39,597 bases of DNA from a virus. Location: positions 1 through 39,597 of the IMG/VR virus record IMGVR_UViG_3300021356_000052, one strand, 5' to 3'. Positions 4,856 through 34,680 of the stretch are shown here, in pieces; the stretch's first letter is position 1; every line of letters begins with the position of its first letter. The notes under the pieces are model-generated. The model did no database searches. It saw nothing but the letters and a program-made list of their open reading frames with translations, and had not been told where the DNA came from. Made by a program: the position numbers and the translations under genes.

Positions 4856-7800
4856 ATGATACAAACTGGTATCGAATCAAGGGTAAAGGTTCAGGACCTT
4901 ATCGAAGGTCAACTTCCCGAATTCATATTAGATGAAAGTCCAAAAGCAGTAGACTTCCTAAAACAATATTACATTTCTCAAGAATATCAAGGTGGTCCAA
5001 CAGACCTAATTGATAATCTTGATCAGTATCTTACTCTGGAAAATTTAACTCCAGAGAGTATTGTTGGATTTACGTCTCTAACTTCTGCTGCTCCCTCTTC
5101 AGATACCACGATTTCAGTAGAATCGACTAAAGGATTTCCTCAGTCCTATGGTCTACTTAAAATTGATGATGAAATTATCACCTATACTGGTATTACTACT
5201 AATACCTTTACAGGTTGTAAGAGAGGATTTAGTGGTATAACCACATATAGCGACATTAGTAATCCTTCAAACATAACATTCTCTACATCTAGTGCTGAGA
5301 ATCATGATAATTATTCTCCAGTACAGAACCTAAGTTCTTTATTCTTAAAGGAATTTTATAAAAAACTAAAGTATTCTGTAACACCTGGATTAGAAAATAC
5401 TGAATTTGTCTCTAATGTAAATGTAGGCAACTTCATAAAAGAGGCAAGAACTTTTTATCAGGCAAAGGGAACAGAAGAATCATTTAAAATTCTGTATAAA
5501 GTTCTTTATGGAGTAACTCCTAAGATTGTTGATCTTGAGCAGTTCCTATTAAAACCTTCATCTGCAGAATATATCAGAAGAGAAGTAATTCTTGTAGAAA
5601 GAATTAGTGGAGATGTTAACAATCTAATAGGTCAAACTGTATACAGTAGTGCTTCACCTGGAACTAAAGCTGCTGTATCTGAAGTTGAAATCGTAACAAG
5701 AGATAATCAAACTTTCTATAAGATTGGTTTGTTTATTGGTTATAGTGATCAGGATTTAATTGAAGGTACTTTTACTGTAACTGCAAACACTAAGGTACTT
5801 TCTCCTAGAGTAAGAACTGGTTCTTCCGTAGTTACTGTTGATTCTACTGTTGGATTCCCCCAATCTGGAAAAATTACTACTGGTCTAACGACAGTAACCT
5901 ATACTGATAAAACATCCAACCAGTTTTTAGGTTGCACGGTAGTTGATGATCTAGAACCAAAAACTGAAGTAAGATCTGATGAAACTATTTTTGGATATGA
6001 AAACGGAGATCTAACCAAAAAAGTTGAACTGAAAGTATATTCCATTGTATCTGATATACTTTTATCAAAAGATGCTGGTCTTGCCCTACCAAATGAATCT
6101 ATAAAAGTTCTCCATCTTGGAGATCTAATTGATAATCCAGACAATATCAATGATAAGACATACAAGCAAAAATTTGCTAATAGTTGGACTTATAATACAG
6201 CATCTACATTTGAAGTTTCTGGAATTAATACTTCAACAAGAGTATATACTTTATCATCCGATTTAGATAAATCTAGTATTAAAGTAGACGATACTTTCGA
6301 AATTATAAACAATGTTTCGAAAGAAGTTCAATTAAGTGATGCTAGAGTTTCAAGTGTTGATAAAGCAAACAAGCAAGTAACATTATCATATACTGGGTTT
6401 AGCACAGATCCAAATATTCCTCATACAATAAGAAGAGTTGCGAAGAAAACTAGTAGTGACAGAGTTCCTTTGGAATATGGAGATGATACTTTAACGTCTG
6501 ATATTCAGAATGTATATTCTGAATCAGGAAGCGACTTCATGTATGTTGCTTCTAACTCCTTACCATCTTTCTCTTTCAGAAAGAATAGCAATCTAAAGTC
6601 TATTATTGTAGGAACAGGTATAACCTTTATTGGTGCAGCAACTACAGAAAATGGTGCTCTCCAAAGAGAAGTAACAGATGTTGATTATTCTATTATTTCT
6701 TTCCCAACAGCAGTTCCTTTCTTAACTGGTGATGCTGTCGTGTATCAACCAGAAACAACATCCATCATTGGTCTAAACACTGGAGAAACTTACTATACAA
6801 AAGTTCTATCAGACCCCAAGCAAATTAAATTATATCCAGCTCCATCCTTTATTGACACTGACAATTATTTAAAATTTACTCCTTTAAGTCTTGGTGTTGG
6901 AGGTAAGCATACATTTACTATTGAGTCTAAGAATGATAAAAATATTCAACCACAAAAACTTCTTAGAAAGTTCCCATTAAAAGAAGAAATTAAGCAGAAT
7001 AATGGGGAACCTCATGATCAAGAAATGCTTGGCATGTTGGTAAATGGTGTTGAGATTAAGAGTTATAAGTCTCCAGATAAAGTTTTCTATGGACCTCTAT
7101 CTAAGATTGATGTATTGAATCCTGGAACTGGATATGACGTAATCAATCCTCCTCAGATTGTAGTTGCCGATTCTCCTGGTGCAGGAACTACTGCACTAGT
7201 AAGACCTGTTATTAGTGGATCTGTAGAGAAAATATTTGTTGATCCTCAACAGAGAGAACTTGAAAATGTTGTATCTGTAAGTATTGCTGGTGGAAATGGT
7301 TCTGGTGCTATCTTAAAACCAATCACAGAAACAACATTTAAAGAAATTAACTTTGATGCTAGACTTTTAAGCAATTTTGGTGGTGTTGGAGAAGTTGCTG
7401 AAACTATTACTTTCCTATCAGATCATAATTTTAGAGATGGTGAGGAAATCATTTATAAGACAAATGGCAATTCTCCTCTTTCAATTGGAACTTTCTTTGC
7501 ATCGAATGCAGATCAAAATAGATTCCTAGTAAACAATACAAAGTATATCGCTGAATTTATCAACGATAAGACAATCAGACTGTATAACAGCACTTCAGAC
7601 TTTAATGCTGGCATTAATACTATTGGATTTACAACCGCATCCAATTCAGGTGTTCATGCATTTAGAACTTTTGATGGAAAGAAGACTCTCAAAGAAATCA
7701 GAGTATTAGAGGGTGGATCTGGATATCAGAATAGACATCTCTATGTCAAACCTGTAGGAATATCTACGATTGAGAATACTGTTACTTTCATTAATCATAA

Positions 7801-10800
7801 CTTCAAAGAAGGTGATCTTGTAGATTATCAGACTACTGGAACTGCAGTATCAGGATTAACTACTGCTAATCAATACTATATTTTTAAAGTTGATGATGAT
7901 ACCTTTAGAGTAGCAGATGCTGGTATCGGCGGAACTATTAAGACAAATTATAATAGAAACAAATTCATTCATTTTGACAGTGTGGGATCTGGTTATCAGA
8001 TCTTTAAATATCCAGATATTGCAGTAACTGTAAATGTATCTTATGGTTCAACAAATGTTGGCGTTATTACAGCAACCCCCATCGTAAGAGGAGGAATTGT
8101 CGATTCCTACCTTTATGAATCTGGAACTGCTTATGGAAGCAGCACAATTAATTTTGAGAAAAAACCATCAATAACGATTAAAAACGGAAAGGCTGCAAGT
8201 CTCTATCCTGTAGTATTAGCAGGTAAAGTAGTTAGAGTTGATGTTCGTTCTAGAGGATCTGAATACTTCTCAACACCAGATGTGGACGTTGTTGTATCAG
8301 GAAGCACTGGTGTTGGTGCAGTATTAAGACCCATCATTCTAGATGGTCAAATTGATAGCGTAGTTGTAATTAATCAGGGAACAGGATATGTTCAGGAAGA
8401 AACTTCTATCACAATTACACCAGCTGGTAGAAACGCTAACTATTCAACTAATCTCAGTTATCTAACAGTTAATGATGCTGAAAGATTTGGTTCAGAATAC
8501 TTGAATCCAACTTTTGGTAAAGGTCTCCAATATAGCAACATTTCTTATTCCAGGGATCTAGCAGCTTTTGAGTTTAATGATGATGGAACTACACACTCCC
8601 CTATTATTGGCTGGGCATATGATGGAAACCCAATTTACGGACCATATGGTTACAATGACCCATTAGATCAGAATAGCGGTAAACGTATTCTAAAATCTGG
8701 ATACATTCTTGATGCTGCTTCTGTAGACAGTCGTCCAAGTGGTTTTACCAATGGTTTCTTTGTTGAAGATTATAGATTTAATGAATCTGGAGATTTAGAT
8801 AGACATAACGGAAGATTTTGCAAAACACCAGATTTTCCAAATGGAACTTATGCATATTTTGCGGGTATTGCCACAGGCGGTCTATTCACACCCACATTCC
8901 CATATTTCATTGGAGACAGATTTAAATCTTTATATCAAGGAGTAGATCTTGGTCAAGATGATGGAATTGATAATAATGATTTAGTAAGAAATACTTTCCC
9001 ATACAGAATCAAAGATGAGTATGCATCTAATGATTACTTGAATGAATCTTTACAACAAAATAAGCAAGAAGCAATAATTACTTCAACTGAAAAGGGCACT
9101 ATTGATTCAATTGAAATTAGAACTAGAGGAGACAATTATAAGGTAGGAGATTTACTCAATTTTGATAACAGCGATACTGGAGGCGGTGGTGCTAGAGCAA
9201 CTGTTTCTAGTGTAGAAGGCAAGTCTATAGTTTCTATTGCATCTTCAACTTTAGAGTATTCTGAATCAATTATAACCAGAGAGTCTAATGATAAGGTTGC
9301 TATTCATATTCAACCAACACATGCATTTGTTGTAAATGATGTAGTTTCTATTTCAGGTTTATCTACCTTCTTACCAAATCTAACTGGTCTCAAAACAGTT
9401 GGTATAAACACTGATACTTTCAATATCTACAAAGATATTCCAGCAAATGCATCTGCTGGTTTAGTAACTGATGTTTATATTTCAAATATTCCTAACTCCC
9501 TTTCGATTGGATCGACTATTGGAATCGGAACAGAACTTCTTTCTGTCTTAAATATCTTCCCAATACCAAAGATTGTAAGGGTTAAGAGAGGAATTACAGG
9601 AACAGCACATACAACATCAACAAGTGGTTTTGTATATCCAAATAGAATCTTTGTTGATGCTCAAACTGGATATTTTAATTCCAGTCTGAATGAAAAGATT
9701 TATTTCAATCCTCATCAATCTGTTGGTGTAGGATCTACCTCTGGTGTTGGTATTGCAGTAACAAACACTCTTGGGGATGTTACTAAAGAGATAAACATTC
9801 CAACTCGCAGCATCTATCTACCAAATCATCCATTCTTAACAGGTCAAACTGCTATTTTAAGAAAGAATGGTGGCGGTAGTAATATTTCTGTTGCTAACAC
9901 AGAAACAGAAACTCAATTTGATATTCTGAGTAGTGGTTCTGAGACTGTTTATACTATTAAGAAAGGTCCAGACTTCATTGGTATTGTAACTCAAATTGGT
10001 CTAACAACTTCAAGCAGTGGACTTTTCTTCTTCAATAATGGATCTGATAATTATGAATACTCAATTGAACCAACTGAAGATCAAGTAACTTGTATTGTTC
10101 AGAAGAACGATGCATTAGTTTCTGTATCAACAATCCATAACTTACAACCAAAAGATAAAATTAACCTGAGTGTAATACCTGATAGATCTGTAGGAATTGG
10201 AACTTCTACTTCAGTTATTGTCAAATTCAACAATGATATTCAAAAAATTGTTATTGATCCTGTAGGATTTACCTCAGAATCTATTAGTATTGCTGAAAAT
10301 ACGATTACTCTTACAAATCATAATTTCACAACTGGCGAAAAAGTATACTATGATTCAACTGATCTGATAACTTCTGGTCTTGAGACTGGCGTTTACTATG
10401 TACATAAGATTGATAAAGATAGGATCAAACTTTGTGATACCTTTGACGACACTCTTGCTTCTCCGCCAGTAGTAGTTTCTCTTGCTTCAACTGGAGGAGC
10501 TTCCCAGGAATTATCAGCAGTCAATCCTAAGATCACTCCAACAAGAGGAAATGATCTCGTATTTGATCTATCTGATGCTTCTCTTACTGGACTTGAATTT
10601 AAAATCTACAAAGACTTTGAGTTTAATAATGAATTTGTCTCTATTGCAAATACAACTACTTTCTCAACTGCGGGTATTAGTACAGTTGGAGTTGGAACTA
10701 CAGCATCTTTAACTCTCAAGTATTCTGAGCAACTACAAAATCCACTCTTCTATAACGTAGAAAGATCTGGATTTATCTCAACTGCTGATGCAACAGTTAA

Positions 10801-13800
10801 AGACTTCAATCAAATCATGTATAAGAAGAGTAAGTATGACGGTTCTTACTCAATTATTGGTGTTGCAGAAACAACTTTTGTTATCACTCTAACTGATATT
10901 CCAGAGTTTGATTCTTATCAGACAAATAATACAACATCGATGAAGTATACAACTACTTCATCTAATACATCTGGTCCAATCGGAACTATTAATATAATCT
11001 CTGAAGGTTCTGCATACAGATCTCTTCCTGCAATTTCAAGCGTCACTTCTACAAATGGTAGTGATGCTCTTCTATTCCCCAAATCAACTAAACTTGGTAA
11101 TCTGAAGCAATTCAGAATCGGGCAACAAATTATAGAATTTAATACTGATAAAACATTAAGTCCTAAAGCTGCTCTACCAGCAACTATTGAACTAAAAGAT
11201 AATTTAACTATTGATGAGATTGAAATCTTAGATGGAGGAAGTAACTATACTATTGCACCAGATCTAGTAATCGTTGATACACTAACTGGTCTAGAGCAAG
11301 ATGGTATACTTCTATGCGAAATCGGATCAAGTTCTATTGATAACGTAACTATCTTTGAACAACCAACTGGATTGACTTTCAATCCAAAAACTATATTTGC
11401 AGTCAATAATACTAACGGTGTTGGTATTGCAACAATGCAATCATCCTTGAGTGGAATTGTTACCTGCTTCTTAACTACACCTCTACTAGGATTTAGTACA
11501 AGTGTATTTGCTATCGGAGATGAAGTATTTGTTGAAGGTGTTACTAAAAATGGAACTGATGGTACAGGATTTAATTCGGATGATTATGGATATTCATATC
11601 TAACTGTTCTTTCATATTCAAACACCATTCCTGCTAAGGTAGAATATAGTGTTGCTGGTTTAACTACTAATCCAGGTCTCGCAGATACTACTCAGAGTTC
11701 CTTCGCTAATATGACGAAGAGATCTGATTTACCAGTATTCAGAGTAACTCAGAAGAAATCAGAATTTAGTATTGGTGAGAATATAAGTGTAAACGGAGAG
11801 AATACTGATCTATTCATCTCTTCTATACTGAAAGACTATATTAAAGTTACTGGTGTATTCCAATTAAAAGTTGGAGATGTAATTCGAGGTAACATTTCTG
11901 GTTCCAAAGGAACTGTATCTTCTCTCAATACAAGTGATGGTAGATTTACTGTAGATTATTCTGTAAGGTCTGATCAAGGTTGGAAGACTAATACTGGTGA
12001 ACTAAACAATGACATTCAAGTAACTCCAGATAACGACTACTATCAAAATCTCTCCTACTCTATTAAGAGTCCTATTCAATATAAGGATTCGATTGACTCT
12101 ATCAATCGTCTAGTACATACATCTGGTCTCAAGAATTTTGTAGAAACTGAACTAAGTTCTACAAGTTCTATCAGTGTAGGCAGTACTTCTCCCACAGCTC
12201 TCAACTTTATCGATCTAAGTTCGGATAATAGAGTTGATACCATCTATGGATTCGGTCTCAGTAGAGATACAGAAGTTTCTGCTCTAAATGCATTTACAAA
12301 TTCCTCAAGATTCATTGAACTTGGCAATATTAAACTTGTAGATAGTTTGATTTGCAGAACAAATAGAGTTCTTGAAATTGATGATGTTAGTAAGCAGTTT
12401 ACAAATAAAGAGAATGTAATTGATGAATTCATTGACCTTGATGAATACACCAAAGATATCGCAAGATTCCTCGTTCAAGTCAGAAGTACTGATGGACTAC
12501 AAACAGCAATCTATGAATTGATCATTATCTGGGATGAATTACAAGAAAACGTCCTTACTCTTAATAAGGCATATCTCTCCAGTACAGGAGTTGGTGTTAC
12601 TTATTCTGGTGCAGATTCTTCCGAGATTACAAATCTATGGGATGAAAGAGAGTTTGCAACTGTAACTGGTCATATTGATGTCTTTGATGTTCTTTCTGTA
12701 AGATTTACTCCTGAAGATGTCTTTAATATCGACTACGACATTAAGTTCATTAAAGATACTTTTAATAGCAATGCTGTTGGACTAGCATCGACTTCTATTG
12801 GATTCATTAAGAATCAATCTTCATATCGAATTGCAGGTACAGGAGGTACGGCGACACTATTCGAATATGATGCTACAGACTTTGATGCAGTTCATGTTCA
12901 AACACACATTTATGATGAAACCGACAATGTTCAGAACTTCCTGGAGATGTATCTGCATCATGATGGAACAGATACTTACATAACCGATTACTACTTTGAT
13001 AGCAATCCTTCGGAAGGTATTAGCGGAAATGATTTTACTAACTTTATACCTGAATTAAGCGGTGGAGTACTCTCACTCAAGTATGTAAATACTGGTTCAA
13101 ATGATATTGAAGTAAAAACTAATGCTGTTGGATTCGGAGCAACATCTAATGGAATTTCTACTCTAAGATTCCAGTCTACTGGTGTTCCTGATGGATCTGA
13201 AAGAAGTGCTTATTATGAATCAAATTATGCTGTAGGCACTGGAGTAACAGAAATCTTCAGAGGTTCTAAGCAACTATTCACTTCTGTTAAGAGTTTGGTT
13301 AGCGTCAATAATGGTTCTGACTTTGCCCTACATCAAGTTTATTCTTTAAACTCCGACGAAACTAATACATTCTCTACACAAGCTCCATTTATCTCTATTG
13401 GTAGCACAACTGGTATTGGAACCTTTGGTTCTGATTTTGATGGGTCAGACTTTATTGTTAAGTTCTTCCCCAATGCTGATGCTTCTGGAATTGTAACTGT
13501 AAAAGCATTTAATGAAGCACTTTATGAACTAGTTGACCTAGAAAATGAGTATGAAAATATTGATTACGGATTCATCAAGAAGCAAGAGATTGGAATTGCT
13601 CTCTATGATGCAGTTAACAGTCCAAGAATTAATAAGAATTCTTTTGAAATGGAATATCAAGGTATTCCAATCTTCAAAAAGACATTTAATCCAGCAGATA
13701 CAAATATCTTAGATCGTACAACTGGTATATTTACGATTGATAATCACTTCTTCTCTGATGGGGAAGAATTGATTTACAAAGCAGGTTCGACTGTTGTTGG

Positions 13801-17662: not shown

Positions 17663-17664
17663 AC

Positions 17665-17672: not shown

Positions 17673-17691
17673 GAAAGAAAACTGCTAAAAA

Positions 17692-19272: not shown

Positions 19273-19273
19273 G

Positions 19274-22200: not shown

Positions 22201-25200
22201 TACAGTTCCTTCTAATGATTCTGGAGATTTCTACACAGTAAACTCTTATAGTTCAGAAAGATACAAAAACGATATCCCATTACTGAAAAATAATACTGTC
22301 AGAGCATCTGACGTACTTGACTTTAGACCAAGAGTTGCTGATTTCAATGCTTCTACAGCAAATAGATCTCCATTTGCTTTTGAGTCTCGTTCCTTTGGAT
22401 CTTCTAGTGTAAACACAACTGCTGTAGTTGCTCCAAATGAGAGCACTTTACTTGGTTATGATCATTACATGGGAAGAATCGATAAGATTGTTCTTGATAA
22501 AGAAGGAAATCTTTCATTGGTTCAAGGAACATCTGCAGTAAGACCAAAAGAACCTACAGTCATTGAAGATTCAATGACAATTGCTAGGATCTCTCTTCCA
22601 CCATACTTATTTGATGTAGATGATGCTGAAATTTCTCTAGTTGACAATAGAAGATATACAATGAGAGACATTGGAGGTCTCGAAGATAGAATCGAAAATC
22701 TTGAAACCTTCACTTCTTTAAGTGCTCTAGAATTGAGTACACAGTCTCTACAAGTTCAAGATGCTCAAGGACTTGATAGATTTAAGTCTGGATTCTTTGT
22801 TGATGATTTTGCAGATAATGGAAGAATTGATCTAGGTAATGCCGATACAAAAGTATCTGTTGAATCTGATAGAAAAGAATTACAATCCCTATTTGATGTT
22901 TATTCTTTAGAACTGCAACCAGCATTTGATTCTTCAGTAAATATGGACACTGCGGATCTATCTGCAGATCTTCCTCTACTTGACCCAAATACACAAAAAA
23001 CTGGCGATCTAATTACCCTTAAGTATGAACAAAAGGGATGGATTGAACAACCTCTAGCTTCTAGAGTTGAGAATGTTAACCCATTCAATATGATCGAGTT
23101 TGTTGGAGCGGTTGAACTAACACCAGCATCTGATAACTGGGTAAGAAATGTATTTGTTCCAGGCGGAACAAGAAGAATTACTGGAGGATGGAATGGATCC
23201 TTCATTGATAATGTTCTAATTGATAGAAGACCAGAGACCTTTATGCGTTCAAGGAACATTATGTTCCAAGCAGGTGGTCTGAGACCTCTTGCTAGACATT
23301 ATCCATTCATGGATAGTATCGGTGGAATTGATCTGGTTCCTAAACTGATTGAAATCAATATGACTTCTGGAACCTTTGATGTTGGAGAAGATATTGATGG
23401 TTTCATTGGTCCTGATAGAGTTATTACATTTAGAGCAGCAAGACCAGACCATAAAGATGGTCCATATGATGCACCAACTCTGACCTATAATGCAAATCCA
23501 TACAATAAGGCAGAAACATTTGGTACTTCATATTCTGCATCTGCAACAGTCGTAAACGTTGATGTTCCATCACTAGCAGCTGCTGCTATTGGTAAGTATA
23601 ATGGTTTTGTTGTTGCTGGAGTTAATTTAGTTGGTAGAAGTAGCGGTGCAACTGCATCTGTTACCGATTCTCGATTAATTGCTGACGCATTCGGTGATAT
23701 TCTAGGAACGTTCTTTATTAGAAATCCACTAGCAACACCACCTCCAAGTGTAAGAATTAAAACTGGAGAAAGAATCTTCAGACTTACATCTAGCGATATT
23801 AATGCAGAACCTCTTCCTGGAAGTAAGTTAATTAGTTCTGGAGAAACTACGTACAACTCAACTGGTATCGTACAAACATTCAGACAAGATACGGTTATCG
23901 TAAGAAGACCACCCCCACCACCAAGAAGACGTAGAAGAAAAGACCCTCTAGCACAATCATTCACTGTTGATGAAACTGGAGTATTCCTAACATCAGTAGA
24001 CCTATTCTTTGCGAATAAGGATCCTAATGAAAAGTGCTATGTTGAAATTAGAACTGTAGAACTAGGAACTCCAACTAATCAGTTAGTACAAGATTTTGCA
24101 AGAGCAATCTTGTATCCAGATGATATTACAACTTCTACAGATGCATCAGTAGCAACTAATGTTAAGTTCCCATCTCCAATTTATTTGGAAGCAAATAGGG
24201 AATATGCAGTTGTTGTTCTTTCCCCAACCTCAAATAATTATGAATTATGGATTGCTCAGATGGGAGAGAAGACTGTCAATGGACAGAACTTACCAGATGC
24301 TGAAGCAGTAATGGTAACCAAACAGTATATTGGAGGAAGTTTATTCAAGTCTCAAAACGGTACTATTTGGACTGCAAGTCAGTTTGAAGATCTGAAGTTC
24401 AAACTTTACAAAGCAAACTTTACTTCTCAAAAGGGAAGTGCATTCTTCTACAATCCTAATTTGGATGTTGTTGATGAAAACGTTCCTGCTCTAACTCCAG
24501 ATGCCGTTAAGATTTTACCAAGAAAACTTGATGTTGGTATTAATACCGTTTCCCTAAATGATGTTGCTGATCAACTTGTTATTGGAGCAAGAGTTAAAGC
24601 AAACAACTCTCTAGCAAATGGATACATCGAAAGAGTTGGCGGAGCAGTTTCCTTTACAGGAATTACTACTGCAATTGCTGGAGCAGGTTATTCAACTGGA
24701 ACATATCCTAATGTAACTCTGTATCCTATTGTTGGACGAGGAAGAAACCTAGTTGCAGAAACTGTTGAATTTAATGATGCAGGAGGAGTATCTCAGATTG
24801 TTCTTAATACTGCTGGTCTTTCTACAGGAAATGGTTGGGCAACAGGTGATGTAGTTGGTATTACGACTTCTCAAGCAGGAGGCAGAGGTAGCGGAGCACA
24901 ACTATCAATTAGAGATGTCAACGGTATTGATACTTTATACTTGACAAATGTTCAGGGTGAAGAAATAACCGCTGGCGGTTTACTTCAAATTTATACTGGT
25001 AGCACTGCTGGTCCTGCTCTAGCAGATACCTCAATCACAAGTTCTAGTCCTGTAGGCGGAGAATTTGCTGGTAACGTATTTGAAGTAACTCATTATAATC
25101 ATGGAATGACCGCAGATAATAATATCGTTTCTATTAGCGGTGTTGATCCTGATACTATTCCAACTCAACTATCAGTCGATCTTGATCTAAGTGATTCTGT

Positions 25201-26392
25201 CATTGCTCTTGCAGATACGACAAGTTTCTCAAGATTTGAAGGAATTACTACTGCTGCGGGATACTTGAAAGTTAATAATGAAATTATTTACTACGATAGT
25301 ATTGCTAGCGGTCAGTTGGGTATTGCAACTCGCGGTGTTGATGGATCTGCAATTCAGAAGCATGTTAGCGGAAGTCAGGTTTATAAGTATGAAATTGGCG
25401 AAGTTTCTCTGACCAGAATCAATAAGCAACATGATATGTCTTCGACACCAGCTCTCAGCAATCTGAGAGAAATTGATTCATATCATCTAGAATTTGATAG
25501 AGGATCTAGAGGAACTGGCGAAGCACAATTGAGTTTCAGACAAGAATCTCAAGTTGGCGGAATGAATATCTTTGCATCCAGAAACGTTCAGTATGATGTT
25601 GTTCAACCTCAGTTCAATATCATTACACCAGGTCAAGGATCTAAAGTTTCTGCGACAATGAGATCCGTCAGCGGAACAAGTGCAGGCGGTGCTGAACCAT
25701 CATTCATTGATCAGGGATTTGAACCAGTTCTACTAAATGCAGAAAATGATCTCAACTCCACTAGACTGGTCTGCTCCAAGTTGAATGAGACGACAAGATT
25801 GACATCTTTACCAAGAAACCGTTCATTCACGATCGGAATTTCTATGGAAAGTGCCGATTCTAATCTGTCTCCAACTATCGATACTCAGACTGCATTTGCT
25901 GGATTTGGAAGACATCGTTTGAATAATCCAATCTCAGATTATGTAAATGATTCTAGATCTAATAATTTAAGCGATGATCCTCACGCATTCGTATACATTT
26001 CAAATAGAGTAACTCTTGCTCAACCAGCATCTTCTCTCAAAGTATTTGTTGCAGCAAATAGAGATGCTTCTGCTGATTTCAGAGTCCTTTACAAACTATT
26101 CAAGTCAGATTCGAGTGAGATTGAGCAGTCATATGTACTGTTCCCTGGATATGATAACTTGAATGATACTAATGGAGATGGATTTGGAGATGATGTAGTT
26201 GACTCTTCCAAAAATAGCGGAAGAGCAGATGCATTCGTTGTTGCTAGTGCAAATGAAGAGTTTAGAGAATATCAATTCAGTATTGATAATCTTGATCAAT
26301 TCTCTGGATATCAAATTAAGATTGTTGCTAGCGGAACAAACGAAGCGAAGTCCCCAACATTCAAAGATCTAAGAGCAATTGCATTAGCATAA
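19274..26392 (+). CDS. DUF4815-type baseplate/tail fibre protein (2372 aa)
   Basis: The N-terminal block with YYDDFDKDDNFYRVLFKPGF and PVQARELTTLQSILQNQIES is the start of DUF4815, found at the base of tail appendages in marine myoviruses. Its typical end, TVRASDVLDFRPRV, is near residue 1010, so the domain seems expanded by insertions. A helical register follows near 1130-1230, then a hinge RRPPPPPRRRRRKDP at about 1543-1557. Next comes a jelly-roll-like segment (LAQSFTVDETGVFLTSVDLF) to about 1720, a GxGY repeat near 1800, and a conserved C-terminal domain ending in KDLRAIALA. A calcium-type loop DTNGDGFGD is at 2298-2306. It occupies the place of T4 gp9/gp10 after gp8. It is probably a peripheral baseplate protein that carries fibres; the exact T4 equivalent is uncertain. 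Confidence 0.82.
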   Translation: MPQKTNLNINPYYDDFDKDDNFYRVLFKPGFPVQARELTTLQSILQNQIESFGSHIFKEGSMVIPGGITYDRFYEAVRVNATHFGLDVDLYLNSFVGKKISGAQSGVTATVEKVIFPPTLGVEEPTLYVKYLNSDNSFTFNPFSSGETLITEDTVTYGNTTIQIGDTFASTIDVNATSTAAAVHVSKGVYFIRGTFVDVPTDTIVLDAYTNNPSYRVGFNISEELVSAGDDDSLYDNARGFSNYAAPGADRLKISVSLSKKELTDYDDKNFVELVRVDNGELKKLQNKSTYSIIKDYFAKRTFEESGDYAVSEFGVDLGESLDNKLSNGGFFVETQKTEQNNDPSEDLYCARVSPGKAYVRGFDIEFPGSQILDADKPRDTTEVTGASIPFEMGNLIKVNNVQGTPFVGINNTDNVVKLQSYRKGTSGAAGINGTGETIGQARVYSFALADNAYDNTDSQFDLYMFDVQTYTKLVLNELVFAGYMPQSSYIKGLSSGATGYVVQAPGASGTTGIQLTQTSGEFIVGEQISINESTLYRRTIIDIEAKNITDVKSIWQERASIGGISTDFSADTALFERTPIGFEITDKITVSPTGIVTCAGKTFSGISTNAVIKFQRNGIGLTAATFNRVAQVSNDLLSLELEALPTVFGVCDGDLPTEASTETTFSVMEPKIFNEENSYLYAELSNPNVASVKLDDSNLTISHQVRDRTISATGTLSLNTNTIGFTSAFFEPFDADRYSIIYSDGTLEPLDSSQIEFADNSTTINFSGLAKSGIGSAIVNTTVKRQSVQSKQKDFDRSVQVIVSSTANSESAGITGLSSSFYYGLRVEDKEISLNTPDVVDIVAVYESLGTSTPTLDTLQFVSGLGLDVNAIVGERVIGQTSKAVGQIVTRPSTTDVGFVYLNANKFIAGETVKFEESLIESNLQSIVLGNYLNITDRYDLDAGQREQYYDYSRIVRRKQSVSPSRKLLIIFNKYTVPSNDSGDFYTVNSYSSERYKNDIPLLKNNTVRASDVLDFRPRVADFNASTANRSPFAFESRSFGSSSVNTTAVVAPNESTLLGYDHYMGRIDKIVLDKEGNLSLVQGTSAVRPKEPTVIEDSMTIARISLPPYLFDVDDAEISLVDNRRYTMRDIGGLEDRIENLETFTSLSALELSTQSLQVQDAQGLDRFKSGFFVDDFADNGRIDLGNADTKVSVESDRKELQSLFDVYSLELQPAFDSSVNMDTADLSADLPLLDPNTQKTGDLITLKYEQKGWIEQPLASRVENVNPFNMIEFVGAVELTPASDNWVRNVFVPGGTRRITGGWNGSFIDNVLIDRRPETFMRSRNIMFQAGGLRPLARHYPFMDSIGGIDLVPKLIEINMTSGTFDVGEDIDGFIGPDRVITFRAARPDHKDGPYDAPTLTYNANPYNKAETFGTSYSASATVVNVDVPSLAAAAIGKYNGFVVAGVNLVGRSSGATASVTDSRLIADAFGDILGTFFIRNPLATPPPSVRIKTGERIFRLTSSDINAEPLPGSKLISSGETTYNSTGIVQTFRQDTVIVRRPPPPPRRRRRKDPLAQSFTVDETGVFLTSVDLFFANKDPNEKCYVEIRTVELGTPTNQLVQDFARAILYPDDITTSTDASVATNVKFPSPIYLEANREYAVVVLSPTSNNYELWIAQMGEKTVNGQNLPDAEAVMVTKQYIGGSLFKSQNGTIWTASQFEDLKFKLYKANFTSQKGSAFFYNPNLDVVDENVPALTPDAVKILPRKLDVGINTVSLNDVADQLVIGARVKANNSLANGYIERVGGAVSFTGITTAIAGAGYSTGTYPNVTLYPIVGRGRNLVAETVEFNDAGGVSQIVLNTAGLSTGNGWATGDVVGITTSQAGGRGSGAQLSIRDVNGIDTLYLTNVQGEEITAGGLLQIYTGSTAGPALADTSITSSSPVGGEFAGNVFEVTHYNHGMTADNNIVSISGVDPDTIPTQLSVDLDLSDSVIALADTTSFSRFEGITTAAGYLKVNNEIIYYDSIASGQLGIATRGVDGSAIQKHVSGSQVYKYEIGEVSLTRINKQHDMSSTPALSNLREIDSYHLEFDRGSRGTGEAQLSFRQESQVGGMNIFASRNVQYDVVQPQFNIITPGQGSKVSATMRSVSGTSAGGAEPSFIDQGFEPVLLNAENDLNSTRLVCSKLNETTRLTSLPRNRSFTIGISMESADSNLSPTIDTQTAFAGFGRHRLNNPISDYVNDSRSNNLSDDPHAFVYISNRVTLAQPASSLKVFVAANRDASADFRVLYKLFKSDSSEIEQSYVLFPGYDNLNDTNGDGFGDDVVDSSKNSGRADAFVVASANEEFREYQFSIDNLDQFSGYQIKIVASGTNEAKSPTFKDLRAIALA

Positions 26393-26393
26393 T

Positions 26394-26600: not shown

Positions 26601-26640
26601 GATCTAAATAATTAAATAAAGAAACCTTCATTATAGAGAA

Positions 26641-27290: not shown

Positions 27291-27295
27291 AAATT

Positions 27296-27303
27296 TATAA
27301 ATA
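27296..27303 (+). promoter_or_regulatory. T4-type late promoter for the tail fibre
   Basis: TATAAATA is an exact late consensus match in the 48-nt gap after the small structural gene, 35 nt upstream of the fibre start codon. The fibre also has a GAGG ribosome-binding site. Confidence 0.75.
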
Positions 27304-27338
27304 CCTACAAAAGAGTATTCAATAAGCGAGGCAATTAG

Positions 27339-29468
27339 ATGGCAGCCGCTGTAGTTCAGTTTAAAAGAGGTGCGTATGCTGGTTTGCCAGCCTTACAGGC
27401 AGGTGAACCAGGTTTTTCAACCGATAAGTACGATTTCTATATCGGTTTAGATAATACTATTTCGGGCAACAAGTTCTTCGGAAGTCAAAGGTATTGGCAA
27501 AGAGAAGACGGTATTGAGTCCGCATACTTAAATTTAGTAGATAGAGATGGATCTAATAAGATCGCTCTAAAAACTCCAAACGTATTATCTGGCGTTACCA
27601 CTTATGTTCTGCCAGCAACTCCTGTAGCTGGAGGTTTGCTACAGTCTGATGCTGACGGAAATCTTTCCTGGTCAAGTGCTCTTACCCAGGTCAACCTAAA
27701 CAGTCTATATGTTACTGGTCTATCAACATTCCAGTCTGCAATATACGTCTCAGACACTACTGATTCTGAGGACAAGGACACTGGTTCTGCAGTATTCAAT
27801 GGCGGTCTAGGTGTAGAATTATCAACCAATATTGGAAGAAACCTAAAAGTAGGTGGTATTGGTACATTCGTTGGTGCTCTAAGTGTAGACTCCACGACAG
27901 ATTCTAGTAGTCCAACAACGGGTGCTCTAGTTGTTGGCGGTGGCGTCGGATTATCAAGAAATCTATATGTAGGTGCTGGCGTTTCTGTCGTCGGAGTTTC
28001 TACATTCTCAGATACTACAAATACAACTGCAGTAGGAACAGGTGCAGTTGATATTAAAGGTGGTTTATCTGTTGCACAAAATGCATATGTTGGTGCTGCA
28101 TTAAGTGTATCTGGAGCAGCAACACTTCAAGGTGCTACAGCACTAAACGGTAATGTCAATCTCGGTAATGCTGAGACCGACATTGTTACTATTAATGCTG
28201 ATATTCAGGGAGATCTACTTCCTGAAACTGACGGATCATTTAATATTGGCGATAATACTGCTGGTAAGCAATGGTTGAATGGTAGTTTCTCAGGTATTAT
28301 CACTGCAACTACTGGTCTTCAAGGTGCCAACGTAAAAGTTGGTATGACATCTGCTAGAACTATTGATACTTCTAGCGGTTCTCTATTCCTTAGTGGTGCT
28401 GATGATAGAGTTACTGTTGATGGTACTCTAAGTGTTCTTGCCAACGAAAACGTAGAAGGAAATCTAGACGTAGCTGGAACAGGTCAGATTTCGAATGTTA
28501 ACATTGGCGTTAACAGCACGACTCAGATTGAGTCAACAGCAGGTAATCTAAAACTGAATTCTGCTACAAACACTATTGATATCGATTCCCAGACAAGCAT
28601 TACTGGAATTGCAACATTTAATACTGGACTGAAGGTTGCTACTGGTCAAGAAGGAGCAATCATTGGTAATATTGGTATCGGTACTGTTGATGACCAAACA
28701 ATCAGTACAGAAGCTGGAAATCTGGTTCTAAGATCTGGTCCTGCATCTTCTACAGTTAGAGTTGAAGATGACCTAGTTGTTACTGGAACTATTACTGGTT
28801 CGATTACTGGTTCTATCTCAACTGCAACCAGATCTCAAACTATTGACGTTTCTTCTGTTTCAGATACTGCTGACAGATATCTAATATTCTCTGAGGCATC
28901 AGCAACTGGAACTGGACAAACTGCATATGTTGCTCCAGATATCAAATATAATGCAGACGCAACAACTTTAACTGTACCAACTGCTCAAATTGGTGCTATT
29001 AAGGCATCTGATGGCAGCGATGCTCTAACGATCTCTAACACGACTGGTAACGTAAGTTTCGCAAGTAGTATTACTGTTACAGGCGATATCACAGTTCTCG
29101 GTACTCAGACAATCGTCAATACTGAGGCTCTGAAGGTCGAAGATCCTGTCATTGAACTTGGTCTAGTAAACAGCGGTGGAAATCTTGTTCCTCCAACTGT
29201 AGACCAAAACTATGACATTGGTCTGATGTTGCACTATTATACAACATCCGCCAAGGTTGCTGCAGTTTACTGGGATGAGTCAGTAAACAGAGTTGCAATC
29301 GCATCTTCTGTAACCGAGTCAGCAAATGTCATGACTGAAGTTGCATACGCTGATGTTGAATTTGGCGGACTTTGGATCAACGATGCTGCTGGACAATCTC
29401 AGGTAATCAGACATAACGGAACTGCAAGAATCCTTGAGAACATCACCGTTGATGGGGGTGCCTTCTGA
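27339..29468 (+). CDS. Tail fibre protein with tandem repeats (709 aa)
   Basis: The N-terminus (VVQFKRGAYAGLPALQAGEP and then FYIGLDN) is the usual attachment segment of phage fibres, in which QF-x-RG, an L..GE stretch and IG..D mark a small beta domain. Residues about 137-264 hold three related repeats built around a GG-x-G(V/L) turn and NLYVGAG-type strands (period about 40-46). After them come long beta-helix-like stretches rich in Thr, Ser, Gly and Ala with heptad-free trimer-like composition. The C-terminal domain has DPVIELGLVNSGGNLVPP and ends in VIRHNGTARILENITVDGG, a block I recall from marine phage fibres. No intramolecular chaperone is visible. It probably contacts the host surface. 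Confidence 0.82.
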   Translation: MAAAVVQFKRGAYAGLPALQAGEPGFSTDKYDFYIGLDNTISGNKFFGSQRYWQREDGIESAYLNLVDRDGSNKIALKTPNVLSGVTTYVLPATPVAGGLLQSDADGNLSWSSALTQVNLNSLYVTGLSTFQSAIYVSDTTDSEDKDTGSAVFNGGLGVELSTNIGRNLKVGGIGTFVGALSVDSTTDSSSPTTGALVVGGGVGLSRNLYVGAGVSVVGVSTFSDTTNTTAVGTGAVDIKGGLSVAQNAYVGAALSVSGAATLQGATALNGNVNLGNAETDIVTINADIQGDLLPETDGSFNIGDNTAGKQWLNGSFSGIITATTGLQGANVKVGMTSARTIDTSSGSLFLSGADDRVTVDGTLSVLANENVEGNLDVAGTGQISNVNIGVNSTTQIESTAGNLKLNSATNTIDIDSQTSITGIATFNTGLKVATGQEGAIIGNIGIGTVDDQTISTEAGNLVLRSGPASSTVRVEDDLVVTGTITGSITGSISTATRSQTIDVSSVSDTADRYLIFSEASATGTGQTAYVAPDIKYNADATTLTVPTAQIGAIKASDGSDALTISNTTGNVSFASSITVTGDITVLGTQTIVNTEALKVEDPVIELGLVNSGGNLVPPTVDQNYDIGLMLHYYTTSAKVAAVYWDESVNRVAIASSVTESANVMTEVAYADVEFGGLWINDAAGQSQVIRHNGTARILENITVDGGAF
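27748..28133 (+). repeat. Three in-frame repeats in the tail fibre
   Basis: Units begin near 27748 (SDTTDSED), 27886 (VDSTTDSSS) and 28009 (SDTTNTTA). Each continues with a TG-A-x-x-GG-x-G(V/L) turn, an N(L/A)YVG or NLKVG strand and a closing short strand. The repeat is at protein level; the DNA has diverged. Tandem strands of this kind usually set fibre shaft length. Confidence 0.7.
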
Positions 29469-29471
29469 TCC

Positions 29472-29479
29472 TATAAATA
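29472..29479 (+). promoter_or_regulatory. T4-type late promoter for the neck operon
   Basis: TATAAATA (context CCTATAAATAGG) is an exact late consensus match four bases after the fibre stop and 28 nt before the coiled-coil gene. It heads the run of coupled genes through gp13, gp14, gp15 and gp16. Confidence 0.75.
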
Positions 29480-29507
29480 GGGTTACTACTTAGATAAGAT
29501 TTAGATT

Positions 29508-29888
29508 ATGTCATCTGAAGTTGATTATCAGATTCTGCTGGGTACTTACCAGCAGAAATCTTCTGAATTGCTTAGTCAGACAATCGCATTAGAGGCAAGA
29601 GTAAGGTCATCGAATCATCAGATCGAGGTCCTTAACAAGCAGGTAAATGATTTGATTGCTGAGTTAGAGAGACACAAGTCTATTATTGCTGAACTAAAAA
29701 CGGCAGAATTTAATAGATTGGAAGAAGAAAAGGAGAAGCAAAAACTCCTTGAAGAAGAAAGGGAGCAGGACAATTTACACTTTGGTTTGGTATCTGCACC
29801 AGAACCAAAACCTAAGGTAGCAAGGAAAAAGAAAATAAATAGTGCTGAGACTAATTTATTAACTCAGCCAGCTGAGGGAGAGGTTTAA
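29508..29888 (+). CDS. Coiled-coil protein upstream of gp13
   Basis: The product has 126 residues. A long helix spans about residues 8-90 (LLGTYQQKSSELLSQTIALE through LNKQVNDLIAELERHKSI to a Glu/Lys-rich stretch EEEKEKQKLLEEEREQ), clearly a coiled coil. A basic KPKVARKKKIN segment follows. There is no membrane segment. It is the first gene after a late promoter and its stop overlaps the gp13 start by 1 nt. It is probably a virion or assembly protein for tail or neck; short coiled-coil genes are seen here in related phages as far as I recall. Confidence 0.72.
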   Translation: MSSEVDYQILLGTYQQKSSELLSQTIALEARVRSSNHQIEVLNKQVNDLIAELERHKSIIAELKTAEFNRLEEEKEKQKLLEEEREQDNLHFGLVSAPEPKPKVARKKKINSAETNLLTQPAEGEV

Positions 29889-30730
29889 TGGCAAAACCAT
29901 CAACACGCCAGGAATTAATCGATTATTGTTTTAGAAGATTAGGCGCTCCTGTGCTGGAAATTAATGTTGATGATGAACAGGTTGATGATCTGGTAGATGA
30001 TGCTATTCAATTTTATAACGAACGTCATTTTGACGGGGTTGAAAGAATGTATCTTAAGTATGAACTTACCCAAGATGATATTGATAGAGGAAAGGCAAAA
30101 AATACTACTGGAGTTGGAATTGTAACCACAACTGGAACCGCATCGATTCCTGGTTACGGTTCGACTACTTTTAATTTTTACGAAAACTCTAATTATATTC
30201 AAGTTCCAGATTCTGTAATTGGAATCGAAAAAGTATTTAAGTTTGATACAAGCACTATCTCTGGAGGTATGTTCAGTATCAAATATCAAATATTTTTGAA
30301 TGATATGTATAGATTCAACTCTGTTGAGTTGATGCAATATAGTATGACAAAAACTTATTTGGAAGATATTGACTTCTTACTAACAACTGATAAGCAAATA
30401 AGATTTAATAAGAGACAAAATAGAATGTACCTTGATATTGATTGGGGTGCTCAAACTGCAGGAAACTTCTTAGTTATTGATTGTTATAGAGCATTAGATC
30501 CTGCAGACTTTGCAAAAGTATATAATGATTCATTCGTCAAAAAATATCTTACTTCATTGATAAAGAGACAATGGGGACAGAATTTGATTAAATTTAGGGG
30601 TGTAAAACTTCCTGGCGGAATTGAAATGAATGGAAGAGAAATTTATCAGGATGCTGAAAATGAGCTAAAAGAATTAAAGCAGATCATGGCTCTAGAGCAT
30701 GAGTTACCACCCTACGACTTTATTGGATAA
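29888..30730 (+). CDS. gp13: Neck protein gp13
   Basis: The product has 280 residues, near the 309 of T4 gp13. The opening TRQELIDYCFRRLGAPVLEI and NVDDEQVDDLVDDAIQFYNE (residues about 5-45), then RHFDGVERMYLKYEL, is the conserved core of the family, which forms the head-tail connector ring beneath the portal. Further conserved segments are IGIEKVFKFD, YQIFLNDMYRF and the C-terminal LIKRQWGQNLIKFRGVKLPG. The strong GAGGGAGAGG ribosome-binding region and overlap with both neighbours indicate tightly coupled expression with gp14. Identification rests on recalled sequence and gene order. Confidence 0.93.
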   Translation: MAKPSTRQELIDYCFRRLGAPVLEINVDDEQVDDLVDDAIQFYNERHFDGVERMYLKYELTQDDIDRGKAKNTTGVGIVTTTGTASIPGYGSTTFNFYENSNYIQVPDSVIGIEKVFKFDTSTISGGMFSIKYQIFLNDMYRFNSVELMQYSMTKTYLEDIDFLLTTDKQIRFNKRQNRMYLDIDWGAQTAGNFLVIDCYRALDPADFAKVYNDSFVKKYLTSLIKRQWGQNLIKFRGVKLPGGIEMNGREIYQDAENELKELKQIMALEHELPPYDFIG

Positions 30731-33700
30731 TGGCACTTAATCCATTCTTTCTCCACGGATCCTCTTCGGAACAGCGACTTGTTCAAGACTTGATTAATGA
30801 ACAGTTGAGAATGTATGGTATTGAGGTCGTATATATTCCAAGAAAAATAGTAAACAGGGACGAAATCCTCGCTGAGGTGCAGTCTTCCAAGTTTGATAAT
30901 GCATACATCATAGAGGCGTATTTAAACACCTATGAGGGGCATACTGGGGGCGGAGACATCCTTAGTAAGTTCGGTATGCAACTGAAAGATGAGATTAATC
31001 TCGTTATTTCAAGAGAAAGGTATGAAGAATATATTGGTGCTTTCATTCAGGATGAAGATCCATATGAAATAGAGGTTGCATTAAGACCTAGAGAAGGAGA
31101 TATAATTTATTTCCCTCTTAGTGAAAAGTTTTTTGAAGTTAAGTTTGTAGAACACGAAAAACCATTCTATCAATTAGGAAGGGGTTATACTTATGAACTT
31201 AATTGTGAACTCTTCGAATATGAAAATGAAGTTCTCGATGTTGGTATACCTGAGGTTGATAGAGCACTTGAAAATGTTGGTGAGATTATAACACTCAAGA
31301 TGGTTGGTTATGGTCAGACTGCAGCAATTGGTGCAGATATCAATACTGGATATGTAAGACAGGTTTATATTAATAATGATGGTTACAATTATACCTCGAC
31401 TCCAACAGTAACCTTTGAAGATGCCCCATCATACGGAAGATCTGCAAAAGGTGTTGCAATTACAACTTCTATTGCAGGAGTTAGATCTTTAAAAGAAATT
31501 ATTTTAATAGATGCTGGTTATGGTTATAGACATACACCGACTTTAACAATTAGTGGAGGAGGTGGAGTAGGTGCAGCAGCTACCTGTTCCATTGAACTGT
31601 ACAGAAAAGGTGTTTCTAGAGGAGTTATTATTAACAGAGGAGAAGGATATACAGAAATACCTTCAGTAACCTTCAGTGGTCCTACCTTTACTGGTGCAGC
31701 AGGAACTACAGTTATTATCAATAATGCTGTTGATAGGGTATCCATGACTGAGGGTGGAACAAATTATTCCACAAAACTGGCAATCGGAGTTACGTTCAGT
31801 TCACCAAATCCAGTTGGATTTGTAACTGGTGTAATAAGTGCTGTTGCAGCAAATGACCAATTATCAACAGTATCAATTACTAATGCTGGAATTGGACATA
31901 GTATTCCTCCAACTTTGACATTTAGTGCTCCAACAGGAGCAGCAGCAACTGCTACAGCAACAGCAGTTGGAGGATCTCTCTACGGAGAGCAAGTTTCTAG
32001 CGTTTCAATTGCATCTTCTGGAAGATATTATTTAAGTGCTCCAACAGTAACGTTTGATAATCCGACAGGAATAGCATCGACTGCTACTGCAAATACAACA
32101 TTATCGTCCTCTGGCGGCATATCTACGTTCTCATACACACTACAAAGTGGAGGTAGATATTACCTAGCACCTCCAACGCTAACTATTGATTTCTTATCAC
32201 TATCTTCGGGGTATATTGCAGATTCTTATTTTGGAACTAATGCATGGAAAGTCGTTAATGCGGATTTAGATAGAAATATTACTCATCCAGGAACCGCTTC
32301 AACTACTGCAATTGGTTACAGTGGTTCTATTCAACTCGCAGCAAAGATTCCAAGTTCTTTACCAGGTCTTTCAACATTTATTTCATTCAATAAATTATCT
32401 AACGGGAGTAAGTCTACTCAAGTAGATCTTAGAGTCAATGATGACGGATATATTGAAGTTGGTCTTGGTACAGATAAAGTAGGAGTTAATACGGATAATC
32501 TAACCTACGACTATACTGGATTGGATGTTAGAGATGATCAATGGCATTGGATCTATATCAATTCAACAATACTTCCAAACTTTACTCAACGTTTAGAATT
32601 ACAAGTAGATGGCGGTTTACCTGTAGATACATTCTTTGCTGCTGGTGGAGGAGAAATTCAAATAGTTACTGGCGCAGACGTAACTCCACCAGTAATTGAA
32701 AATGATTTAAACAGCGGAATTATTGTTGACGGTATTTTTGGAACAGTTGATGCTGGAACTGCATCTTCTACTGCACCAGGATCAATGCCAACTGCGGATT
32801 CCAATACAATATTATTTGATGATTTTGAAAATGATGCAATCGGAAATCTAAACTCGATTAGTATTGGTTGTTCAATTTCAAACGGTGTTGTAACTTCAAT
32901 TGATAATTCATCAACAACATTATCTGGCATTATAACTTCTATTGTATCTGCAGTTATTGACCCTCCAATTGGAACACCATCAAACTTTGTTGCAACTGGA
33001 GTTGCAAGTGTAACTGCTGGTATAGTTACTGATATTTCTCTAGATTATGCTGGATATGGTTATGTAACTTCTCCAGGAGTTACTCTTTCAGCACCAACAG
33101 GAGTAGCAACTCAATTTACTGCTACTGCACATGGTAAAATAAACGGAGATGGTAAACTCAGCGAGATTGAAATTACAGATAGAGGACTTGGATATATTTC
33201 TAATCCAACTGTTAGTATATCTGCGCCATTGGGACAGACACCAGAAGGTTATGGAAATGTTGGTGTTGCAGGAACTATTATATCCGTAACATTAACTAAG
33301 ACTGGTGTTGGTTATACAGAACCATCGATTGTATCCATTTCCAATACTGTAACTGATAGAGATTTTGCTACTGGATTCACAACAGCAACTGGAACAGTTA
33401 CCTTAAATGCGGACGATAATAGAATCGATCATATTAAGATTATTGATCCAGGATCGGGTTATCTAACTCCTCCTACAGTAACTGTTGGAGATGCTCCAAT
33501 TGCTGCTGGTATTGGCACATATTGGTTCAACGAAGTTATTACTGGTTCAAAATCTGGTGCAACAGCAAGAGTTAAGCGTTGGGATGGTGAAGAAGGAATT
33601 CTACAAATCTCTATTGAAAATGGCACTTTCCTAGATGGAGAGCGAGTTGTTGGATCCTCTTCGTCCGCTATATATGTTGTCGATTACTACATAAACAAGA

Positions 33701-33822
33701 GAGATGTACCTAAGATTGCATCTGTCGAAAATATTGACGACTATGAACAAAATGATGAAATAGAATTTGAAGCCGATCAAATTTTAGACTTTTCTGAGAA
33801 AAATCCCTTTGGAAATTACTAA
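30730..33822 (+). CDS. gp14: Neck protein gp14 with giant surface insertion (1030 aa)
   Basis: T4 gp14 has 256 residues; this one has 1030. The N-terminal core (residues 1-175) is plainly gp14: LINEQLRMYGIEVVYIPRKI, AYIIEAYLNTYEGH, SKFGMQLKDEINLVISRERY and the block RPREGDIIYFPLSEKFFEVK ending in PFYQLGRG. The last 40 residues (DEIEFEADQILDFSEKNPFG) resemble the T4 C-terminus. Between them lies an insertion of about 780 residues: seven GxGY-type beta repeats (about 215-480), a laminin-G/concanavalin-like domain (about 498-648, with DDQWHWIYI and LELQVDGG), four more repeats (about 770-925) and one SGA-type module (ITGSKSGATARVKRWDGEEG). gp14 sits at the connector, so the insertion probably projects as a collar or whisker-like decoration. 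That role is inference. Confidence 0.9.
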   Translation: MALNPFFLHGSSSEQRLVQDLINEQLRMYGIEVVYIPRKIVNRDEILAEVQSSKFDNAYIIEAYLNTYEGHTGGGDILSKFGMQLKDEINLVISRERYEEYIGAFIQDEDPYEIEVALRPREGDIIYFPLSEKFFEVKFVEHEKPFYQLGRGYTYELNCELFEYENEVLDVGIPEVDRALENVGEIITLKMVGYGQTAAIGADINTGYVRQVYINNDGYNYTSTPTVTFEDAPSYGRSAKGVAITTSIAGVRSLKEIILIDAGYGYRHTPTLTISGGGGVGAAATCSIELYRKGVSRGVIINRGEGYTEIPSVTFSGPTFTGAAGTTVIINNAVDRVSMTEGGTNYSTKLAIGVTFSSPNPVGFVTGVISAVAANDQLSTVSITNAGIGHSIPPTLTFSAPTGAAATATATAVGGSLYGEQVSSVSIASSGRYYLSAPTVTFDNPTGIASTATANTTLSSSGGISTFSYTLQSGGRYYLAPPTLTIDFLSLSSGYIADSYFGTNAWKVVNADLDRNITHPGTASTTAIGYSGSIQLAAKIPSSLPGLSTFISFNKLSNGSKSTQVDLRVNDDGYIEVGLGTDKVGVNTDNLTYDYTGLDVRDDQWHWIYINSTILPNFTQRLELQVDGGLPVDTFFAAGGGEIQIVTGADVTPPVIENDLNSGIIVDGIFGTVDAGTASSTAPGSMPTADSNTILFDDFENDAIGNLNSISIGCSISNGVVTSIDNSSTTLSGIITSIVSAVIDPPIGTPSNFVATGVASVTAGIVTDISLDYAGYGYVTSPGVTLSAPTGVATQFTATAHGKINGDGKLSEIEITDRGLGYISNPTVSISAPLGQTPEGYGNVGVAGTIISVTLTKTGVGYTEPSIVSISNTVTDRDFATGFTTATGTVTLNADDNRIDHIKIIDPGSGYLTPPTVTVGDAPIAAGIGTYWFNEVITGSKSGATARVKRWDGEEGILQISIENGTFLDGERVVGSSSSAIYVVDYYINKRDVPKIASVENIDDYEQNDEIEFEADQILDFSEKNPFGNY
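31363..33516 (+). repeat. Eleven GxGY beta repeats in gp14, split by a LamG-like domain
   Basis: Repeat marks begin near 31373 (NDGYNYTSTPTVTF), 31507 (DAGYGYRHTPTLTI), 31630 (NRGEGYTEIPSVTF), 31750, 31881, 32010, 32140, and then after the LamG-like stretch at 32221-32670 near 33045, 33179, 33298 and 33445 (DPGSGYLTPPTVTV). Each unit is about 40-45 residues: G-x-G-Y, P-x-V-T-(F/I/L), then an Ala/Gly-rich turn and a valine-rich strand. Protein-level similarity is high while the DNA has diverged. Confidence 0.8.
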
Positions 33823-34670: not shown

Positions 34671-34680
34671 TTAATAAATT

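Follow-up and report, generated by a model that had tools for sequence, protein, structure and literature searches.

Do the modules that recur in several virion proteins of one phage still move between its genes, or are they old copies kept in place? The question is raised by the virus contig IMGVR_UViG_3300021356_000052, analyzed here over its entire length of 39,597 bases (the window). It carries a T4-like structural cassette consisting of a gp25-position wedge subunit, gp6, a "gp7" of 4268 amino acids (aa), gp8, a 2372-aa DUF4815 protein, an Mtd_N protein, gp13, a 1030-aa gp14, gp15 and a small terminase subunit. The original prediction, made from the sequence, held that gp7, gp8, the DUF4815 protein and gp14 draw on one pool of modules, through recombination within this genome and with a common surface role along the virion. 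Our analysis favors another history as the probable one, in which old shared modules were dispersed early and then inherited in place, the repeat array of gp14 grew and took in a lectin-like domain, and arms built of the GxGY module would act as spacers.

Module families in the baseplate and neck proteins

The four proteins had been named and placed correctly, with gp7 (4268 aa) at 4856–17662, gp8 at 17692–19272, the DUF4815 protein at 19274–26392 and gp14 (1030 aa) at 30730–33822; the modules and domains located below are all on the plus strand. The gp14 protein is the T4 neck protein (head closure Hc2; Pfam T4_neck-protein PF11649, 107.8 bits against a cut-off of 25), with which the gene order gp13-gp14-gp15 agrees. 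We identified gp8 as the T4 baseplate wedge protein (Phage-Gp8 PF09215, 51.8 bits, cut-off 25), and the DUF4815 or VrlC-like baseplate protein matches both PF16075 (197.5 bits, cut-off 30) and solved DUF4815 phage chains (E = 3.5e-37). The giant baseplate wedge protein gp7 (phrog_2885) owes its name to a single hhalign match to T4 gp7 (82 columns, probability 88, residues 196–290); nothing else in the protein was seen to resemble T4 gp7, and a phmmer search with T4 gp7 (1032 aa) gave no match across 15 cassettes. The relatives of the window are Kyanoviridae such as P-SSM2 and S-SRM01, and its gp8, matched by 515 of 50,697 phage records, is 60.0% identical to that of Synechococcus phage S-SRM01 and 58.7% to that of P-SSM2. 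In S-SKS1 (L008, 7570–19956) the "gp7" is spread over several open reading frames (ORFs), partly unannotated, which is either a frame problem of the record or a real split.

Hidden Markov models (HMMs) of the modules were seeded from window copies and iterated over these 15 cassettes (the window and 14 others; 215 ORFs), for GxGY (about 34–44 aa), SGA (about 55 aa), RG (about 66 aa) and HNF (about 80 aa). The fifth-round HNF model drifted, matching terminases and sheath proteins at an independent E-value (iE) < 0.01, and fourth-round HNF and SGA models were used for later counts. Three module types had been said to recur across the proteins. This is so for GxGY, present in all four, and for SGA, present in gp7, the DUF4815 protein and gp14, but HNF is confined to gp7 in the window, and a fourth module, RG, had gone unnamed. 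The literal pattern G-x-G-Y..P-x-V is rare (one strict match) and understates a family that is nevertheless real.

Within gp7, GxGY modules lie at residues 746–781 (7091–7198, E = 2e-9), 1123–1156 and 1164–1194 (8222–8437; hhalign probability 96 to gp8 and 94–96 to gp14), 1414–1449 (9095–9202) and 2118–2145 (11207–11290), both found by HMM, 3481–3504 (15296–15367, weak, E = 0.01), and 4014–4056 and 4062–4090 (16895–17125; probability 95 to gp14 759–834). A pair sits within the T4-like fold of gp8 at about residues 207–298 (18310–18585), weak by HMM and matched by hhalign to gp7 (probability 96) and gp14 (92). The GxGY-type stretch of the DUF4815 protein (about 1790–1888, 24641–24937) is detectable by profile methods only (probability 93 to gp8, 79–80 to gp7). 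In gp14 the HMM finds an array of seven units at residues 207–496 (31348–32217) and a second of four at 764–930 (33019–33519).

The SGA module occurs once in gp7 (2333–2393, 11852–12034), three times in the DUF4815 protein (90–154, 19541–19735; 488–534, 20735–20875; 869–919, 21878–22030), where there is a fourth, weak copy (iE 0.039), and once or twice in gp14 (927–990, 33508–33699). These were found by HMM, the gp14 copy by hhalign as well, and the third DUF4815 copy aligns to gp14 930–986 with probability 90. The RG copies are at gp7 83–146 and 323–385 (mapped as 83–147, 5102–5296, E = 6e-25, probability 96 to the DUF4815 protein; and 323–387, 5822–6016, E = 4e-18) and at DUF4815 1974–2045 (25193–25408, HMM and hhalign). 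The six HNF copies, all in gp7 and all found by HMM, are at 614–694 (6695–6937), 851–943 (7406–7684), 976–1043 (7781–7984), 1653–1738 (9812–10069), 1817–1892 (10304–10531) and 2959–3053 (13730–14014). Taken together, the four types cover 42.4% of gp14, 22.3% of gp7, 9.9% of the DUF4815 protein and 9.7% of gp8. Their description as insertions in unrelated T4 cores fits gp8, where T4 gp8 maps to residues 2–197 and 491–526. It does not fit gp14, whose modules extend a T4-like core (3–225, 30736–31404; PF11649 E = 8e-31, T4 neck chains in the PDB E = 6e-25), nor gp7, of which only some 80 residues (196–290) are T4-like.

Relatedness across proteins was borne out for GxGY and SGA by profile, single-protein and profile-profile searches. 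A GxGY HMM built from gp14 only recovers 8 copies in gp7 and 10 in gp14 (iE < 0.01), and two weak ones in gp8 (iE 0.21 and 0.026). Leave-one-out HMMs were trained solely on orthologues of the seed protein. Among the matches listed for them, GxGY seeded from the DUF4815 protein recovers gp7 (4.8e-9) and gp8, RG seeded from the DUF4815 protein recovers gp7 (8.9e-8), and SGA seeded from gp14 recovers the DUF4815 protein (best 1.9e-7), gp7 and gp8; SGA seeded from gp7 reaches gp14, with the DUF4815 protein at iE 0.013 or worse, and SGA seeded from the first DUF4815 copy finds gp14 and gp7 at 0.012 or worse. In an unbiased hhalign scan, 90-residue profile slices of seven window proteins were compared with the other six (2460 comparisons, 1550 + 910, with reversed-slice controls). 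All 64 matches at a probability of at least 40 fell among gp7, gp8, the DUF4815 protein and gp14, none involved gp6, gp13 or gp15, and reversed slices gave none at this level. On these profile comparisons, the relation between the proteins is therefore one of homology and not of chance.

Convergence, in which short Gly/Ser/Thr-rich β-repeats would be alike by composition and not by descent, is accordingly very improbable. It would accommodate the shortness and low complexity of the units and the weakness of the gp8 and DUF4815 copies in plain HMM searches, but not profile-profile matches at probabilities of 90–96 that have no counterpart in reversed profiles, nor the 55–66 aligned positions of SGA and RG, which are more than one motif. 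Block-shuffled proteins likewise gave no GxGY, HNF or RG match at iE < 0.01; one SGA match appeared, in the fifth and last iteration. None of the four modules scored above the cut-off of any Pfam model in scans of these proteins. Immunoglobulin-like models were absent from the Pfam matches of gp7, gp8, the DUF4815 protein and gp14, the best in the scanned parts of gp14 being Big_5 with 12.9 bits against a cut-off of 23.6. We noticed no work on these repeats in titles and abstract openings of open-licence PMC articles, a literature in which a module sequence cannot serve as query.

Descent of the module copies

Each copy in the 15 cassettes was assigned its best-scoring other copy on the model columns, at iE ≤ 0.3 for GxGY, 0.05 for SGA and 0.01 for HNF and RG; pairs with under half of the columns in common were skipped, and 209 of 241 GxGY copies could be ranked. 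Thirty of the 35 window copies had their nearest counterpart in the corresponding protein of another phage (HNF 6/6, SGA 5/5, RG 3/3, GxGY 16/21), the partners mostly standing at near-equal residue numbers (HNF 2959 against S-SRM01 2935, SGA 91 against 90). For these copies the outcome is the one that the original prediction had named as its refutation. As this test pits one genome against 14, it tilts toward other genomes, which a label-permutation test avoids. For the latter, only best matches to a different protein family were used and genome labels were permuted, the AG-345-E02 cassette being left out as a near-copy of P-SSM2. Same-genome matches were not in excess for GxGY (19/198 against 14.3 ± 4.8 permuted, with 188 of 1000 permutations as high), SGA (5/80 against 5.7) or RG (4/42 against 3.0). 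Near-identical DNA repeats were absent from the window, where repeats of at least 30 nucleotides reach only 67–79% identity; as traces of recent copying they were rejected, none being convincing.

These results contradict the proposal that ongoing recombination in this genome copies modules between virion genes, a traffic for which a shared surface function would supply the selection, and we give it little credence. The four proteins do have module families in common, and for the GxGY copy at gp14 334–363 the best match is a gp7 copy from this very genome, with which the clade average agrees (gp14 unit 4 to gp7 4014, score 77). However, modules that have clearly moved, the HNF of S-CAM9 gp13 and the RG of gp15, do not have their nearest copies in the same genome. 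All five exceptions in the window are short copies of GxGY, and four belong to the gp14 array, for most of which local duplication is the better reading. The nearest copy lies in gp14 for two of the five, in a different protein of another phage for two, and in gp7 of the same genome for the one just mentioned.

Where, then, did the modules arise? None of the four was found in T4 gp5–gp15 or wac at iE < 0.5. In a survey of 188 loci at a strict threshold, GxGY was present in 105/105 gp14 and 99/102 gp7 proteins, SGA in 104/105 gp14, and RG in 90/102 gp7, 60/66 DUF4815 and 26/101 gp15 proteins. The gp14 denominator of 105 includes a row from P-HM2 that appeared as a gp14 carrying HNF and is actually its annotated gp7 (30838–38109, 2423 aa), mistaken by the family HMM, probably via GxGY units. 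An apparent HNF carrier of the DUF4815 family proved to be a 123-aa ORF piece. Across the seven families surveyed, S-CAM9 gp13 is thus the one secure case of HNF beyond gp7. This phage (L192) has HNF in gp13 (36337–37458, iE 5.8e-15), an RG module in gp15 (39448–40527) and eight GxGY units with SGA in gp14. Rhizobium phage IG49 has GxGY in gp8 and in the protein at the DUF4815 position.

Because the T4 tail and neck proteins tested are without modules, gain and dispersal are placed in the marine T4-like lineage, followed by retention. The common module stock of baseplate and neck proteins is borne out at the scale of that whole lineage. So one stock would have been acquired and spread over virion genes long ago, early in the lineage, and inherited in place thereafter, apart from rare later transfers of RG into gp15 and of HNF into a single gp13.

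The enlarged gp14 of the window's clade

In most relatives gp14 has 4 GxGY units in about 460 residues, against 10–12 units in 1,019–1,109 residues in the clade of the window; an alignment of ten gp14s places about 560 additional residues of the window protein between the third unit and the last. Among 90 gp14s from viral contigs the units form a ladder of 3–4 (354–559 aa, the shortest truncated at the end of its contig), 6–7 (542–648 aa) and 10–11 (960–1030 aa, two of them cut). The array ends are orthologous between the forms (long01 to canon1, long02 to canon2, long11 to canon4) and adjacent middle units are alike (long06/07 score 97, long05/06 score 79), as expected from local duplication. 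Judged from the sequences, this shows that gp14 keeps changing in length through gain of GxGY units (4, 6–8, 10–12). Six gp14s of about 550 aa (L042, L043, L050, L062, L095, L107) have four units and an extra 90 or so residues in the C-terminal SGA region.

The long form also carries a predicted lectin-like (concanavalin-A-like) domain (residues 491–727, 32200–32910), an insertion that starts at residue 488–491. By profile search all 44 loci with this domain have it in gp14-type ORFs (36 with the gp14 core, 8 cut before it), and it was not found outside gp14. Weak phmmer matches to short gp14s and other proteins (E 0.02–10) were rejected as chance or GxGY cross-matches. A tblastn search of the region against the 50,697 phage records gave no match at E ≤ 0.01, and the domain had no Pfam or PDB sequence match. 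Four loci (L225, L226, L227, L228) have a 1109-aa gp14 with 12 GxGY units and a further insert of about 80 residues within the domain.

Mapped on a tree built from the gp14 cores, the long form (18 of 102 rows) requires a single change, against a shuffled mean of 16.8, and the mid-length form four. The tree shows the long gp14s as one side of a single branch, which would reflect one enlargement that included the concanavalin-A-like domain. All regions of gp14 are under purifying selection. In the three most distant pairs (window against L028, L029 and L032), the ratio of nonsynonymous to synonymous substitution rates (dN/dS) is tightest in the core (0.06–0.16) and loosest in the inserted domain (0.35–0.47); between close relatives that of the inserted domain is 0.07–0.22. 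When L019 (10001–13090) is compared with the window (30730–33819), synonymous divergence is about 0.18–0.21 in the flanks and 0.04–0.08 in residues 331–890, a drop that looks like homologous recombination between close relatives.

Structure models, possible roles and known systems

In a model of the canonical 459-aa gp14, the predicted local distance difference test (pLDDT) is 90–96 over most of the array (200–360), with three strands per GxGY unit. Foldseek found no match of the array in the PDB at E ≤ 0.001. With VIA-align 2 the best Z was 6.1, strands 184–205 and 374–427 lying in a barrel like domain 3 of aIF2-gamma; the array may be inserted in a barrel, although Z values under 8 can arise by chance. 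In BFVD, 54 predicted structures matched at E ≤ 0.001; the named ones are neck, baseplate wedge, tail-fibre and structural proteins of cyanophages, plus a few from uncultured phages and one from a giant virus. The full model of the window gp14 is unusable outside the lectin-like region, where residues 499–688, at low pLDDT, match concanavalin-A-like folds over 118–156 residues at Z of about 8–9 (laminin G, galectins and sialidase lectin domains among the matches listed).

On the history of early dispersal and inheritance in place, the three-stranded GxGY units would stack into stiff arms, which would project from the neck and the baseplate and serve as spacers. The gp14 ring, as in T4 complexes with C6 in their titles, would in the clade of the window bear long arms with the lectin-like domain part-way along, and this domain could serve to anchor tail fibres or other components of the virion, or make weak glycan contacts near the cell. 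More tentatively, GxGY could be an undescribed β-repeat fold, employed by marine T4-like phages as an all-purpose spacer in both baseplate and neck, and the gp14 of this one uncultured clade an appendage of the neck with many arms and a lectin-like knob that contacts the host or the virion surface.

A possible but doubtful alternative is that the gp14 of the clade is a neck fibre, its extra units and lectin-like domain replacing the fibritin whiskers of T4 and handling tail-fibre retraction or attachment. The 10–12 GxGY units and lectin-like domain of the 36 core-bearing gp14s are in its favor, as is the lack of a T4 wac homologue in any of the 15 cassettes (in the cassettes, as distinct from whole genomes). 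However, cassettes of cyanophages with a short gp14 are equally without a wac match, so that the absence does not track the long form, and the full model is poor.

Several points weigh against the account of inheritance in place with an arm-bearing gp14. In the portion of the report on cyanophage A-1(L) consulted, the carbohydrate-binding module of the neck fibre did not bind the host (PMC10966104). Support for a single origin of the long gp14 is 76.8, which is not strong, and the poor full-length model (mean pLDDT 53) leaves the lectin-like fold not secure. Five of the 21 GxGY copies lack an orthologue as first match, and modules of 34 columns are noisy. Over the 15 cassettes, 72 of 209 GxGY copies find their closest match in another genome and in a different protein family, a count that partly reflects unassigned proteins scored as "other". 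Dispersal of modules between proteins may thus exceed what the window suggests.

Small β-modules added to many unrelated virion proteins recall the immunoglobulin-like domains that Fraser and colleagues are said to have found, in 2006, scattered over phage structural proteins. Those domains are sporadic in occurrence, whereas GxGY, SGA, RG and HNF stand at fixed places and have no Pfam family above cut-off. T4 gp8 and gp14 have cores homologous to those of the window proteins and are without the modules. Domain shuffling is described in PMC10684548 for phage proteins, neck passage structures among them, and in the part of that work seen here, domains are likewise common to neck, baseplate and tail proteins; it stresses ongoing shuffling across phages, whereas most copies described here are old and have stayed where they were, with change chiefly in the number of units.

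Carbohydrate-binding modules, with binding assayed, are described in the neck and tail of 936 lactococcal siphophages in the text available from PMC6669499. The likeness lies in a virion protein that is located at the neck, varies in length and has a fold of carbohydrate-binding type, but in the 936 phages this is a separate neck passage protein, whereas here the closure protein gp14 itself bears the predicted domain. A-1(L), as far as the excerpt of PMC10966104 goes, is a cyanophage with projecting neck appendages and a carbohydrate-binding module; its appendages are the separate proteins gp80–gp82. Concanavalin A and YHYH domains occur in tail and baseplate proteins of marine T4-like and jumbo virions according to the parts of PMC7029224 and PMC7824862 consulted, which describe neither a lectin-type domain in gp14 nor the four repeat modules. 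A YHYH domain is also present in the window gp7 (1241–1337, 8576–8866; PF14240, E = 1.3e-24). Elsewhere in the cassette, a 709-aa protein at 27339–29468, between the DUF4815 protein and gp13, has an Mtd_N domain (PF18454, E = 2.3e-6).

Recent traffic of modules within one genome is thus replaced by old shared modules at fixed positions and by growth of the gp14 array. Four module families without a Pfam model above cut-off here account for between a tenth and two fifths of large virion proteins in marine phages. The enlarged gp14, the one change specific to this lineage, is the most interesting piece, and this unusual neck protein is singled out as a target for structure determination or imaging. 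If its proposed role is true, gp14, ordinarily a plain ring that closes the neck, would itself make the contact with the host or the virion surface.

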